Origin: Filimonas lacunae
Lineage (GTDB): Bacteria > Bacteroidota > Bacteroidia > Chitinophagales > Chitinophagaceae
Assembly: GCF_002355595.1 (NCBI RefSeq)
Contig: NZ_AP017422.1
Location: 5,832,823 to 5,896,822 of the forward strand
DNA length: 64,000 bases
Direction of reading: 5' to 3'
A program made the position numbers and the translations under genes. Of the stretch, positions 2,476-12,251 are shown in pieces. The notes under the pieces were generated by a model. It was not told where the DNA came from and did not search any database. It saw only the letters and a list, made by a program, of their open reading frames with translations. Position 1 is the stretch's first letter, and each line of letters starts with the position of its first letter.

Positions 2476-3114
2476 ATGGCACGACCTCTAATGACCGAAT
2501 GGGGGCACAAGGAAGATTTAAACAAAGACATAATAACTGTATCGGGAAATCTTTTCAGAAAATTTGGGTTTAAAAAGACAACCGTAGAGGATATTGCCCG
2601 GGAAATAGGAAAGCGTAAAAGCTCACTTTACTATTACTACAAAAGCAAAGAGGAAATTTTTGAAGCTGTGGTAAATGAAGAAATGCACCGTTTTTTCCGG
2701 TTGATTAAACGCTCCCTTGAGCATTCAAAAACATCGAAGCAAAAACTGATGCTGTTTTGTAAAGCACAATTTCAGCACCTGGCATCGTTATGCAATCTGA
2801 ATGGAGCATTGAAAGATGAAATCCATGATATTCCCTGCGTAATAACACCTATAAAAAACAGGTTTGATACCACCCAGATTGAACTGATAAAAGAGATTTT
2901 ACAGGAAGGAGTGGATAAGAGGGAGTTTAAAAATATGAGCACCGGCGAAATGAATGCTTTCGCCTACCTGATAGTAAGCTCGTTCAGAGGGCTGGAGTTG
3001 CCCCTGGTAACAAATGGCCCCGACCTGGACAGCCGTATTGCTTTTATTGTAGAAATGATGGTAGAAGGGATAGGCCGCCAGGACCAGACAGTACCGCTGG
3101 CCCCTACAAACTAA
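2476..3114 (+). CDS. TetR/AcrR family transcriptional regulator (left flank of lipid locus)
   Basis: The 212-residue protein has the TetR N-terminal DNA-binding domain at about residues 18-65, with the conserved run FRKFGFKKTTVEDIAREIG followed by SSLYYYYKSKEEIFEAV. The C-terminal two thirds is a variable helical ligand domain with no recognisable ligand. Its DNA-binding part is very similar to that of the TetR at 12771-13367, on the far side of the inositol-sphingolipid operon. Its 3' end overlaps the convergent PAP2 gene by 11 bp. Control of the lipid locus is an inference from position; self-regulation and other targets are equally possible. Confidence 0.85.
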   Translation: MARPLMTEWGHKEDLNKDIITVSGNLFRKFGFKKTTVEDIAREIGKRKSSLYYYYKSKEEIFEAVVNEEMHRFFRLIKRSLEHSKTSKQKLMLFCKAQFQHLASLCNLNGALKDEIHDIPCVITPIKNRFDTTQIELIKEILQEGVDKREFKNMSTGEMNAFAYLIVSSFRGLELPLVTNGPDLDSRIAFIVEMMVEGIGRQDQTVPLAPTN

Positions 3115-4039
3115 CTAAACGGCTAATGAACCGATCGAACCAGGCAGCCGATTTCAGGAAATGAAATATCACAAAACCGATTATCGCACAGCAAATACCA
3201 GCCATTACATCTAACACATAGTGATGGCTGCTATATACAGCTGCAAACCAGATTCCACCAACTACCAACGCAAATAACAGGTTAATATACCCCATCCTGT
3301 TTTTAATTCCATAGTACAGTACTATGGACGGGTAAGCCGCATGCAAAGAAGGCATGGCTGCAAAAACATTAGAGCTTTTGGTATATAACCCTTTGAATAT
3401 AGTGGTATGGAAATACTGGTCGAACCGGTCTAACCCGGCTGTATTTCCTGGGGTTGCCGCATTAAAATCAAAACCATGTAATTGAATATACCATGGTGGT
3501 GCCGCCGGATAAGAATAATACCCCACAAAACCCACCAGGTTTACCAGTAAAAATGTAAGCGCGAAATAATAGAATTGTCTTCTGTTGGTATAGAACAGGT
3601 AGCAGGCAAAAAACAAAGGCACCGGCATCCAGCACAAATAAGCAAAGCCGCTGAAAATATCCAGGAACGTGCTTTGATGGGTAAGCCAGTATTCATTAGG
3701 CGTAAGCACAGCGCCTCCCTGCATGATGCCAAACAAAGCCTTTTCGGCATCATATATACTTTTGATATGCACAGTATTATACCGGTAATTGGGAAATGCC
3801 TTCATATAATCGAACAGAATCCAGAATATAATGAAGATGGAAAACCCAATAATAAAGCGCCTTGTTCCTTTAGAAATGTAATAAAGGGCATTGAATAGCA
3901 ATACCAGGAACAGCTGTTCGGTTTTATAACCAATAAGGATATAAGATAACAACAGGTACCCTACGGAAACTGCGGTAGTAATAAGGATATTCTTCAGCAA
4001 CAGAGGATACGGCTCTTTGGCAATAGAACTGGAAGACAA
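3104..4039 (-). CDS. PAP2-superfamily AUR1-like inositolphosphoryl transferase (inositol-phosphoceramide synthase candidate)
   Basis: The 311-residue membrane protein has several hydrophobic segments and a C-terminal PAP2 core. The active-site blocks are PSLHAAYP (His about residue 233) and SSHHYVLD (His about 271, Asp about 276), the arrangement of the AUR1/IPT1 branch (PAP2_3), preceded by the motif PAAPPWYIQ. Enzymes of this branch move phosphoinositol from phosphatidylinositol to ceramide. The operon supplies myo-inositol phosphate synthesis, a PI-phosphate synthase, a phosphatase and a ceramide hydroxylase, so inositol-phosphoceramide synthase is the best reading. It is the last gene of the operon, 6 nt after the hydroxylase, and overlaps tetR tail to tail. 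A plain lipid phosphatase is the alternative. Confidence 0.8.
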   Translation of the reverse strand: MSSSSIAKEPYPLLLKNILITTAVSVGYLLLSYILIGYKTEQLFLVLLFNALYYISKGTRRFIIGFSIFIIFWILFDYMKAFPNYRYNTVHIKSIYDAEKALFGIMQGGAVLTPNEYWLTHQSTFLDIFSGFAYLCWMPVPLFFACYLFYTNRRQFYYFALTFLLVNLVGFVGYYSYPAAPPWYIQLHGFDFNAATPGNTAGLDRFDQYFHTTIFKGLYTKSSNVFAAMPSLHAAYPSIVLYYGIKNRMGYINLLFALVVGGIWFAAVYSSHHYVLDVMAGICCAIIGFVIFHFLKSAAWFDRFISRLVSL

Positions 4040-4045
4040 GAGAAT

Positions 4046-4669
4046 CTACATTTTATTAGTGAAATCGGAATGGAATATCTTATCCCATATAGCAGAGCTT
4101 ACGCCAAACCCCTTCTCAGCATCCTGATAGTGATGCAACATATGATGTTGCTTAATTCTCTTCATTAGACCACTTTTAAAATTGTAGTGGTGCATAGCAT
4201 AATGAAGCATATCATAAATCAGGTATCCTAAAAGGAACCCGGGAAAGAAAGCAAACAAATTAGCTTTTACCTCAAAACACAGGGAAAATAAAAAGTAAAA
4301 CAGGGTTGCCAATGGTAAACTGGCAGAAGGCGGCATTACCAAGCGCTTTTTATCTCTTGGATAATCGTGGTGTACACCATGGAAAATAAAATGTAACCGT
4401 AACGCCCATTGTGCTTTAGGCACATAGTGGAAAATCCAGCGATGCAGTACATACTCAGTGATGGTCCAGATACCCAAACCAAAAGCGAAGTACCCTATAA
4501 AAGATAAGATATTTGCTCCTTCATGAAAAGAGAGATAAACAAAAACGCCTATAATTGGAATGAATATAAACAAAGGAATAGTAAAATGCACTTTAGAAAG
4601 TCCCTCCATCAGGCTGTTTTTGAACATCCTCACCGACTCAGTGGAGTTAGAAACATAGTTTTTAGACAT
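4046..4669 (-). CDS. Sterol desaturase/fatty acid hydroxylase superfamily protein, FA2H/Scs7-like
   Basis: The 207-residue integral membrane protein carries the di-iron histidine clusters of the fatty acid hydroxylase superfamily in order: HRWIFH, then HGVHHDYPRDKKRLVMPP, then HYAMHHY, then HHMLHH. The second block, HHxxPxDxxRLVxPP, is characteristic of the FA2H/Scs7 ceramide 2-hydroxylases rather than of sterol desaturases. The eukaryotic proteins often carry a fused cytochrome b5 domain, which is absent here, so an external electron donor is required. Its place between the CDP-alcohol transferase and the AUR1-like enzyme, 6 nt from each, suggests that it hydroxylates the N-acyl chain of ceramide in the same pathway. 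Activity and regiospecificity are inferred. Confidence 0.82.
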   Translation of the reverse strand: MSKNYVSNSTESVRMFKNSLMEGLSKVHFTIPLFIFIPIIGVFVYLSFHEGANILSFIGYFAFGLGIWTITEYVLHRWIFHYVPKAQWALRLHFIFHGVHHDYPRDKKRLVMPPSASLPLATLFYFLFSLCFEVKANLFAFFPGFLLGYLIYDMLHYAMHHYNFKSGLMKRIKQHHMLHHYQDAEKGFGVSSAIWDKIFHSDFTNKM

Positions 4670-4675
4670 GTACAG

Positions 4676-10776: not shown

Positions 10777-10784
10777 CAAAGGTA
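10777..10784 (-). promoter_or_regulatory. Candidate -7 box of the inositol-lipid operon
   Basis: On the minus strand this reads TACCTTTG, a full match to TAnnTTTG, within the 323-bp gap upstream of the inositol-phosphate synthase. The predicted start is near 10770, leaving a leader of about 65 nt. No good -33 TTG is visible at the expected place. Together with the terminator at 10953-11010 it supports an independent transcript for the seven downstream genes. Confidence 0.4.
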
Positions 10785-10952
10785 TAAGTAACCTTATATT
10801 CTTTTTGCAGAAAATCTCTTTTAACATATTATCATAGAATAACAATTGCAAAAGCCTGATTTGTAGCAATCCGGAAAAGATAACAGCTTCATTTGACAAA
10901 AACTACAGGGCGTAGTGTGCTATTATCACGGAAAAGAGAGAATAGGTAGCGG

Positions 10953-11010
10953 AAAAAAGCCGGCATTGCAGTTAATTGCTTAAAGCAAATGAGAATAACT
11001 GCAATGCGGC
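10953..11010 (-). terminator. Long-stem intrinsic terminator after serine palmitoyltransferase
   Basis: Arms at 10959-10974 and 10996-11010 pair over 15 bp with one bulged G. A smaller inverted repeat (ATTGCTT/AAGCAAT) lies inside the loop. On the minus strand the stem is followed by six T. It begins 17 bp after the stop of the gene at 11028-12251, so it should end that transcript before the inositol-phosphate synthase gene. The remaining gap (10705-10952) shows only the candidate promoter. Confidence 0.75.
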
Positions 11011-11027
11011 TCTACAATATAATATTG

Positions 11028-12251
11028 CTAATTGGTAGTTTTAATATGTTGCTGACCAGTAGCTAGTTCCAGACCTGCAACTTTTGCAGCTTTCACTAAC
11101 TTTTCAACAGCTTCTTCAATCTGGCTGAAGGTATGCGTAGCCATTAATGAGAAACGGATCAGCGACTCTTCAGGTGGCACCGCTGGTGACACAATTGGGT
11201 TCACGAACACGCCCATTTCCTGTAATACCTTGGTAATGATAAACGTTTGATCATTATTTCTGATATAAATAGGTAAGATGGGGCTTTCTGTTCCACCTAG
11301 GTCAAATCCTGCTTCCTGAAGCATTTTCTTAGCATAGTTTGTGTTCTTCCACAAATTATCTAAGTGATGTGGCTCATTTTCAATCAGATCCAGTGCCGCA
11401 ATTACACTGGCAGCTGATGCCGGCGTAACACTCGCGCTAAACACTAATGAACGTGCTCTGTGTCTGATATAGTCAACAGTTTCATAGTCACCGGCAATAA
11501 ATCCCCCCAGCGAAGCCAGAGATTTACTGAAAGTACCCATGATCAGATCTACCTGGTCATTCAAACCAAAGTGAGATGCTGTACCTGCACCTTTTTCACC
11601 AATCACACCTAAACCATGCGCATCATCAACCATAATGTTACAACCATACTTGGCAGCAAGTTTGGTTATTTCAGGAAGTTTTACAATGTCGCCTTCCATG
11701 CTAAAAACCCCATCCACAGCAATTAATTTCACCACATTTTCAGGTAACTGGGCAAGTTTATGCTCCAGATCGGCCATGTCATTGTGCTTGTACTTAATTA
11801 CTTTGGAAAAAGATAAACGGCAACCATCTATGATGGAAGCGTGGTCGTATTCATCTAAAATGATGTAGTCGTTACGGCCGGTTACACAACTCAACACCCC
11901 CAGGTTTACCTGGAAGCCGGTGCTGAATACAGCTGCATCTTCTTTTCCAACAAAACGGGCCAGCCTTTTCTCAAGGGTTACATGGAGATCGAGAGTACCA
12001 TTCAAAAATCTTGAACCAGCACAGCCTGAACCGTACTTTTCAATTGCTTTTTGACTAGCCTCTTTAATAGCAGGGTGATTAGTAAGACCTAAATAGGAAT
12101 TGGACCCAAACATCAGTATCCTCTTTCCTTCAATCATTACCTCTGTATCCTGCGCTGATTCAATCGGGCGGAAATAAGGATACAAGCCTTTTTCTTTAAT
12201 CATTGCAGCATCTTTAAACGCTGCAATCTTTTCTTTTAGATTTTTCTGCAT
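11028..12251 (-). CDS. spt: Serine palmitoyltransferase (alpha-oxoamine synthase family)
   Basis: The 407-residue enzyme is a fold-type I PLP protein of the alpha-oxoamine synthase family. Visible are [12 protein letters not shown] near residue 50, [13 protein letters not shown], the cofactor-stacking His in [18 protein letters not shown], and the Schiff-base lysine in [11 protein letters not shown] (about residue 243). The family includes serine palmitoyltransferase, glycine C-acetyltransferase (KBL) and AONS (BioF). Bacteroidota SPT is about 395-410 residues, and the adjoining inositol-sphingolipid genes make SPT the best assignment. It would condense serine with a long acyl-CoA to 3-ketosphinganine, the first step to ceramide. 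It has its own terminator, so it is probably transcribed separately from the operon that follows. Confidence 0.82.

Follow-up and report, generated by a model that had tools for sequence, protein, structure and literature searches.

Genes of the locus

The window analysed here, 64,000 nucleotides of Filimonas lacunae DNA (contig NZ_AP017422.1, positions 5,832,823 to 5,896,822, from a genome of one 7.8 Mb contig), carries a run of seven minus-strand open reading frames at 3104-10704 that resembles the inositol-lipid operon of Bacteroides thetaiotaomicron and includes a gene for an FA2H/Scs7-type hydroxylase (FAH). A serine palmitoyltransferase (SPT) gene adjoins it. Families were assigned by Pfam and NCBIfam profile searches, the NCBIfam cut-offs being equivalog thresholds, and these searches upheld the gene family names of the original prediction, an earlier reading made from the sequence alone; its run of seven genes spaced by no more than 21 nt is borne out by the coordinates (gaps of 6, 6, 21, 9 and 6 nt and one 4-nt overlap). 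The genes, under the names used throughout, are as follows.

3104..4039, minus strand: AUR1, an AUR1-like PAP2 enzyme, probable inositol phosphoceramide (phosphatidylinositol-dihydroceramide) synthase (PF14378, E 6e-24; NCBIfam match; motifs)
4046..4669, minus strand: FAH, probable ceramide N-acyl 2-hydroxylase (PF04116, E 5e-18; Scs7 match; invariant histidines)
4676..5968, minus strand: PIPS, a phosphatidylinositol-phosphate synthase of the CDP-alcohol transferase family, fused to DUF4833 (PIPSynBT1523 over cut-off; DUF4833, E 4e-48; motif)
5990..8536, minus strand: DUF5686 protein with an N-terminal CarbopepD_reg_2 domain, predicted outer-membrane barrel (Pfam; AlphaFold model; Foldseek)
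8546..8911, minus strand: GtrA, a GtrA-family membrane protein, counterpart of BT1524 (PF04138, E 3e-17)
8918..9379, minus strand: PgpA, a PgpA-like phosphatase, probable phosphatidylinositol-phosphate phosphatase, counterpart of BT1525 (PF04608, E 2e-39)
9376..10704, minus strand: MIPS, myo-inositol-1-phosphate synthase, counterpart of BT1526 and first gene of the seven-gene unit (PF07994, E 2e-106; PF01658, E 4e-33)
11028..12251, minus strand: SPT, probably its own transcription unit (SerpalmtaseCFB over cut-off)

The core order MIPS-PgpA-GtrA-PIPS-AUR1 is present, with two genes inserted. For the CDP-alcohol transferase, phosphatidylglycerol synthase or another identity was rejected on weaker profile scores of 33 bits for pgsA and 124 and 133 bits for two other inositol-phosphate lipid synthase models, against 401 bits for PIPSynBT1523 (cut-off 350). 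The aspartates D76/D79/D97/D101, named correctly in the original prediction, lie in the motif DX2DGX2AR..GX3DX3D at residues 76-101; the synthase occupies approximately residues 1-240 and is followed by a hydrophobic segment (250-268) and the DUF4833 domain (290-427). The PAP2 protein carries the motifs AMPSLHAAYP and YSSHHYVLD, and PhinosDhcerSyn is its sole NCBIfam match at E <= 0.001; no other NCBIfam family being matched, another identity was set aside, as judged by profile score rather than phylogeny. At that level both results speak against the refuting case named in the original prediction, a grouping of the two proteins with phosphatidylglycerol or lipid-A enzymes. MIPS has one match only in its own genome, and SPT scores 735 bits against the SerpalmtaseCFB cut-off of 640. 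GtrA as a possible added transport part is a novelty that was rejected because BT1524 already belongs to the known operon (PMC8791184, PMC9246714; papers are cited here by PMC number, from the excerpts available). Loss of BT1524 lowered inositol phosphoceramide in PMC8791184, yet had no effect on thin-layer chromatography in PMC9246714.

Conservation and the association of the hydroxylase with SPT

Relatives were collected in one scan with a PIPS alignment, which found at least 548, of which the best 80 were kept and annotated. They are the nearest by PIPS and mutually related rather than a random sample, and some are metagenome-assembled genomes with doubtful labels; nine loci short of flank were dropped from the gene counts, which are therefore over 71. 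On searching for the eight-gene neighbourhood, as the original prediction had proposed, the genes present are colinear on one strand in 71 of 71 loci and all eight occur in 42, which is beyond what chance would give. PIPS and AUR1 are found in 71 each, DUF5686 in 70, GtrA and DUF4833 in 66 each, MIPS in 65, SPT in 62, PgpA in 61 and FAH in 59. The layout in the window is thus the usual one among its nearest relatives, which include Pedobacter, Mucilaginibacter, Chitinophaga, Pararcticibacter, Parachryseolinea, Dawidia and others, and is not peculiar to the strain. A same-genus relative (G002) has the same locus, and within the family the cluster is patchy, with a strong PIPS match in 9 of 36 genomes (G000-G035). 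Clusters of PIPS, AUR1 and DUF4833 also occur in eight genomes without SPT over the cut-off anywhere (L049, L063, L084, L088, L094, L112, L113 and L115), and in L073 and L082 such clusters lack an adjoining SPT gene while SPT over the cut-off lies elsewhere in the genome. One species with PIPS and AUR1 and no SPT over the cut-off is Sediminibacterium soli.

The sole significant PDB match of FAH is yeast Scs7 (E 6e-29), aligned over 186 residues of the catalytic domain and sharing the blocks LHR..FH, HF..HG.HH..P.D..RLVMPP and GFGV.S..WD..F; 13 histidines are conserved without exception across 24 homologs, and there is no cytochrome b5 domain. FAH tracks SPT closely: both genes are present in 59 of the 71 loci and neither in nine, with SPT alone in three and FAH alone in none, so that FAH is found in 59 of 62 loci with SPT and in none of the nine without it. 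The same association is seen across 395 genomes sampled from the class, where operon-type FAH (at least 340 bits) occurs in 11, all of them among the 38 genomes with SPT over the cut-off. Within the two families concerned, FAH is present in 11 of 14 SPT-positive and 0 of 9 SPT-negative genomes (Fisher p 0.0003, a value that ignores relatedness). Sixteen of the 80 loci lack FAH; in the 14 corresponding genomes checked, which are of unstated completeness, two short contigs being left out, SPT is over the cut-off in six and not in eight, operon-type FAH was found elsewhere in none, and a distant FAH paralog of 172-179 bits is present in four.

A tree of FAH proteins (61 of 96 rows) places most operon proteins, together with a second copy from the Filimonas genome, in one group of modest support (87/85). 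Three unlinked members, the second copy included, fall inside this group, the operon-linked row L043 falls outside it, and paralogs of about 130-145 BLAST bits are far off. Neighbours of the non-operon homologs have no common theme, the exception being L230, where a DUF5686 homolog (23%) lies at a distance of two genes. FAH was matched in neither of the two Bacteroides-like genomes (G298, G371); a lack of the enzyme in anaerobes would agree with a requirement for O2.

Two relatives show what accompanies these genes when the headgroup route is exchanged. In L038 (G019), SPT, a GNAT-type gene, an epimerase-type gene, MIPS, DUF5686, DUF4833 and FAH lie together; close by, the opposite strand carries NTP-transferase, CDP-AP, HAD and GtrA genes (types judged by eye and by similarity to L226), and the 20 kb contain neither PgpA nor AUR1. 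In L226 (G503), SPT, the GNAT-type and epimerase-type genes, DUF5686, NTP transferase, CDP-AP, HAD and DUF4833 form one run, with no MIPS in the stretch. DUF5686 and DUF4833 thus accompany both inositol-lipid routes, and FAH accompanies both in one case. Within a wider reading, it is a tentative idea that a single DUF5686-DUF4833 pair serves both routes.

Ceramide steps, transcription units and candidate export proteins

In most relatives, a GNAT-type protein of about 373 residues and an NAD-epimerase-type protein of about 327 residues are encoded between SPT and MIPS. The trio of SPT, GNAT and epimerase genes is together in 54 of the 80 loci (e.g., L050:3159-5266, L106:3034-5195, and others in L040-L119), and in 37 of the 71 it is joined by MIPS, PgpA, GtrA, DUF5686, PIPS, DUF4833, FAH and AUR1. 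The Pfam GNAT match of the former protein is marginal and it has no NCBIfam match. By analogy with Caulobacter (PMC11324152, PMC11087976), the two are candidates for the ceramide synthase and reductase. Neither gene lies in the window. The Filimonas genome has an unlinked GNAT ortholog (51%) about 0.86 Mb away (G000:C1:6700663-6701817; L160:9194-10321) and no clear ortholog of the epimerase-type reductase, the best match being a 31% paralog, so Filimonas may use a different reductase. According to the excerpt of PMC11334938, which cites earlier work, spt, bCerS and CerR lie apart from one another in Bacteroidota; the excerpt of PMC11324152 places cerS and spt in different operons. Both statements would need qualifying if the two genes are what they seem, and they are equally a reason for caution. 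In two genomes of another family, a CDP-alcohol-transferase-like gene and a GtrA gene come after the SPT, GNAT and epimerase genes (L224:5513-10052, L225:651-5087), perhaps another sphingolipid headgroup route.

SPT lies 323 nt upstream of MIPS. Between them are a terminator-like hairpin, which begins about 15 nt past the SPT stop (-29.3 kcal/mol, z -4.96, with 0 of 200 shuffles as good), and a TAnnTTTG box, which we take to be the Bacteroidota -7 type promoter consensus. Such boxes are found upstream of SPT, MIPS and a TetR gene farther upstream; there are seven on the minus strand and one on the plus strand within 2300-13500, none of them with a TTG at 17-23 nt spacing. A pattern scan gave 30 promoter-like sites (33.3 expected) and 18 terminator-like sites (8.9 expected); the SPT hairpin is not among the 18, probably owing to its long loop. 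Because a strong terminator-like hairpin follows SPT and each unit has its own box-like sites, SPT and the seven-gene unit are predicted to be, probably, two separate transcription units. This corrects the original prediction, in which the seven genes come directly after SPT. The signals and flanking genes are:

2476..3114, plus strand: TetR-family regulator, convergent, with an 11-nt overlap with the end of AUR1 (PF00440)
10777..10784, minus strand: TAnnTTTG box some 72 nt ahead of MIPS (a weak site, lacking a TTG spaced 17-23 nt from it)
10956..11013, minus strand: terminator-like hairpin and T-run just past the SPT stop (folding; coordinates counted from the dot-bracket string)
12771..13367, minus strand: TetR-family regulator upstream of SPT (PF00440)

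The two flanking TetR genes are paralogues (35% identical), and the top NCBIfam model for both is the fatty-acid regulator FadR, far under its cut-off. A similar TetR gene lies inside the locus stretch in 28 of the 80 relatives. The TetR pair, the SPT hairpin, the DUF4833 domain on PIPS and the fold of DUF5686 are points new relative to the original prediction.

The DUF5686 protein is predicted to be an outer-membrane Omp85-like barrel. A Foldseek search with its AlphaFold model gave 113 PDB matches at E <= 0.001, and the 50 listed are all SAM, BAM/BamA, TamA or TOC structures, which contain Omp85 proteins (best E 7e-9; TM by target up to 0.62 among the matches listed). An Omp85-like barrel encoded within a lipid operon suggests export. 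DUF4833, whose model is more confident (pLDDT 83.9, pTM 0.80), is fused to PIPS in 55 of the 80 loci, encoded by a separate gene in 20 and without a match in five. The separate copies have signal-like N-termini, as judged by eye, and the domain is apparently periplasmic, tethered to PIPS here and secreted in relatives. A necessary part in PIPS catalysis is unlikely, given the 20 separate genes and the copies near Kennedy-type sets (L038, L226). DUF4833 occurs in 43 of the 395 class genomes and 49 of 244 family genomes, sometimes beside PIPS or beside a CDP-alcohol-transferase-like gene and GtrA. In L195 and L201, from genomes without SPT over the cut-off, a CDP-alcohol-transferase-like gene (by eye), GtrA and DUF4833 are adjacent. 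No paper in the open-access library searched mentions DUF4833 or DUF5686.

Interpretation and comparison with known systems

The locus is best explained as a variant, carried by Pedobacter-, Mucilaginibacter- and Chitinophaga-type Bacteroidota, of the inositol-lipid operon known from B. thetaiotaomicron. With a probability of roughly 0.62, it combines inositol phosphoceramide synthesis with 2-hydroxylation of the ceramide acyl chain, in parallel with the yeast Scs7/Aur1 pathway, and has a possible export arm. PIPS would couple an inositol phosphate unit from the MIPS pathway to CDP-diacylglycerol, the PgpA-like phosphatase would strip the extra phosphate to leave phosphatidylinositol, and the AUR1-like enzyme would transfer phosphoinositol from it to (dihydro)ceramide. 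B. thetaiotaomicron is known to carry out these steps, which are proposed here by homology and gene order. SPT, from its probably separate neighbouring unit, would start ceramide synthesis, with the later steps encoded off the locus. FAH, using O2, would place a hydroxyl at C-2 of the ceramide N-acyl chain, and DUF5686 and DUF4833 may assist in delivering the completed lipid to the outer membrane. What was observed is sequence, gene order, domain families and co-occurrence, from which every catalytic step, the hydroxylation site and export are inferred.

2-Hydroxy sphingolipids are known in some bacteria: Sphingomonas uses P450s, and myxobacteria have functional FA2H-type enzymes (PMC10002949), so that the enzyme type is not new to bacteria. 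In yeast, hydroxylated inositol phosphoceramide requires Scs7 (PMC10865788, PMC10002949). The open-access literature searched yielded neither an FA2H-type hydroxylase placed in an inositol-sphingolipid operon nor a Bacteroidota ceramide 2-hydroxylase gene. Some Chitinophagaceae are tabulated with 2-hydroxy fatty acids, iso-C15:0 2-OH being unresolved from C16:1; the excerpt of PMC11349053 shows no value for Filimonas.

Several observations weigh against this interpretation. AUR1 scores 324 bits, under the PhinosDhcerSyn cut-off of 480, and in the eight genomes that have PIPS, AUR1 and DUF4833 but no SPT, the AUR1-like enzymes would need another acceptor. The assignment of FAH to the C-2 position is drawn from homology alone, and another 35 of the 395 genomes hold FAH homologs of 250-330 bits. 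In 31 of these SPT does not reach the cut-off, so the wider FAH family is not bound to sphingolipids. An unlinked second FA2H-like copy in the Filimonas genome (G000:C1:2547458-2548057; L028:8953-9714) is 60-61% identical, with no locus genes within 19.5 kb around it. In G503, the genome of L226, SPT, DUF5686 and DUF4833 stand by a Kennedy-type set but FAH is absent. Confidence in the DUF5686 model is middling (pLDDT 74.3, pTM 0.57), the DUF4833 fold has no PDB match at E <= 0.001, some DUF4833 genes are unlinked, and no lipid data for Filimonas were found in the literature. Finally, all 11 genomes with operon-type FAH are PIPS-positive as well as SPT-positive; PIPS was sought only in the 38 SPT genomes (positive in 15), and the 395-genome set cannot separate an association with SPT from one with PIPS. 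The SPT-less PIPS genomes do separate the two and speak for the link between FAH and SPT.

That link would suit any ceramide substrate, and it is fairly unlikely, though compatible with the same operon, that FAH acts on the long-chain base (at C-4, like yeast Sur2) or another ceramide site to give a phyto-type ceramide. Sur2-type enzymes also belong to PF04116, and Pfam alone does not separate them from Scs7 types; the alignment to Scs7 over 186 residues with its conserved blocks points the other way, and Sur2 is not among the PDB matches, which involved no head-to-head comparison. Another unlikely alternative holds that FAH modifies another lipid, such as free or glycerolipid acyl chains or amino lipids, and owes its place in the operon to nothing more than a common envelope programme. 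The unlinked second copy would be expected under it, as would the homologs of 47-56% identity found apart from the rest of the locus genes, most of them where the genome has no SPT over the cut-off. Yet among the sets examined, operon-type FAH occurs only in SPT-positive genomes, and in L038 it remains with SPT and MIPS where PIPS and AUR1 have been replaced.

The original prediction had gone further and read a complete 2-hydroxy-inositol-phosphoceramide pathway in one compact locus. Inositol phosphoceramide synthesis and a ceramide-type hydroxylase stand, by sequence, order and co-occurrence; completeness does not. The 37 relatives in which the SPT-GNAT-epimerase trio lies with the rest of the set favour such a locus, but the acyltransferase and keto-reductase candidates present in most relatives are absent here, the acyltransferase ortholog is far away on the chromosome and a terminator-like hairpin follows SPT. 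A single complete locus is highly improbable overall and, as worded, is refuted for the window; it holds better in the Pedobacter and Chitinophaga relatives, provided that their two extra genes encode ceramide synthase and reductase.

If the preferred reading, inositol phosphoceramide synthesis with ceramide 2-hydroxylation, is true, FAH is a candidate for the gene that gives Bacteroidota 2-hydroxylated sphingolipids, and a yeast-like Scs7/Aur1 logic exists as a bacterial operon in several genera. DUF5686 and DUF4833 would be two candidates for bacterial sphingolipid transport to the outer membrane, and the trio of the relatives would supply candidate genes for ceramide synthase and reductase within this group of Bacteroidota, a phylum in which ceramide phosphoinositol has been found in Sphingobacterium spiritivorum, as cited by Heaver et al. 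(PMC9246714).

Some known systems resemble single components of the locus. The predicted DUF5686 barrel is like those of TamA, BamA and SAM50; unlike these Omp85 proteins, the protein has an N-terminal CarbopepD_reg_2 domain and no Omp85 Pfam match at E <= 0.001. The myxobacterial FA2H-type 2-hydroxylases, likened here by description, are also bacterial enzymes with histidine motifs, and the excerpt of PMC10002949 does not state that they lie in an inositol-sphingolipid operon. With the yeast pathway, the locus shares a hydroxylase homologous to Scs7 and an AUR1-like PAP2 synthase, but FAH lacks the cytochrome b5 domain, phosphatidylinositol would be made by a bacterial PIPS and a phosphatase, and the genes are clustered.

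The Kennedy-like cluster of the B. vulgatus/Prevotella type (PMC9246714) has counterparts in L038 and L226, which carry such a set near SPT, DUF5686 and DUF4833; unlike it, the window would use the route through a phosphatidylinositol-phosphate intermediate, and MIPS and FAH are in the stretch of L038 but not in that of L226. The closest parallel is the B. thetaiotaomicron BT1522-BT1526 operon, with MIPS, PgpA-like, GtrA, PIPS and AUR1-like genes in the same order and the same PIPS motif (PMC9246714, PMC8791184). The BT genome itself was not searched; in two Bacteroides-like loci from other families (L219, L220) the five core genes follow the same order, with no FAH, DUF4833 or full-length DUF5686 seen, and a CarbopepD_reg protein near L219 has no DUF5686 match and is thus not the same protein. 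By contrast, in the window PIPS is preceded by an inserted DUF5686 gene and bears a fused DUF4833 domain, FAH is inserted ahead of AUR1 and SPT adjoins the unit. The core pathway is already known; FAH, the DUF4833 fusion and DUF5686 are the departures from the BT operon.

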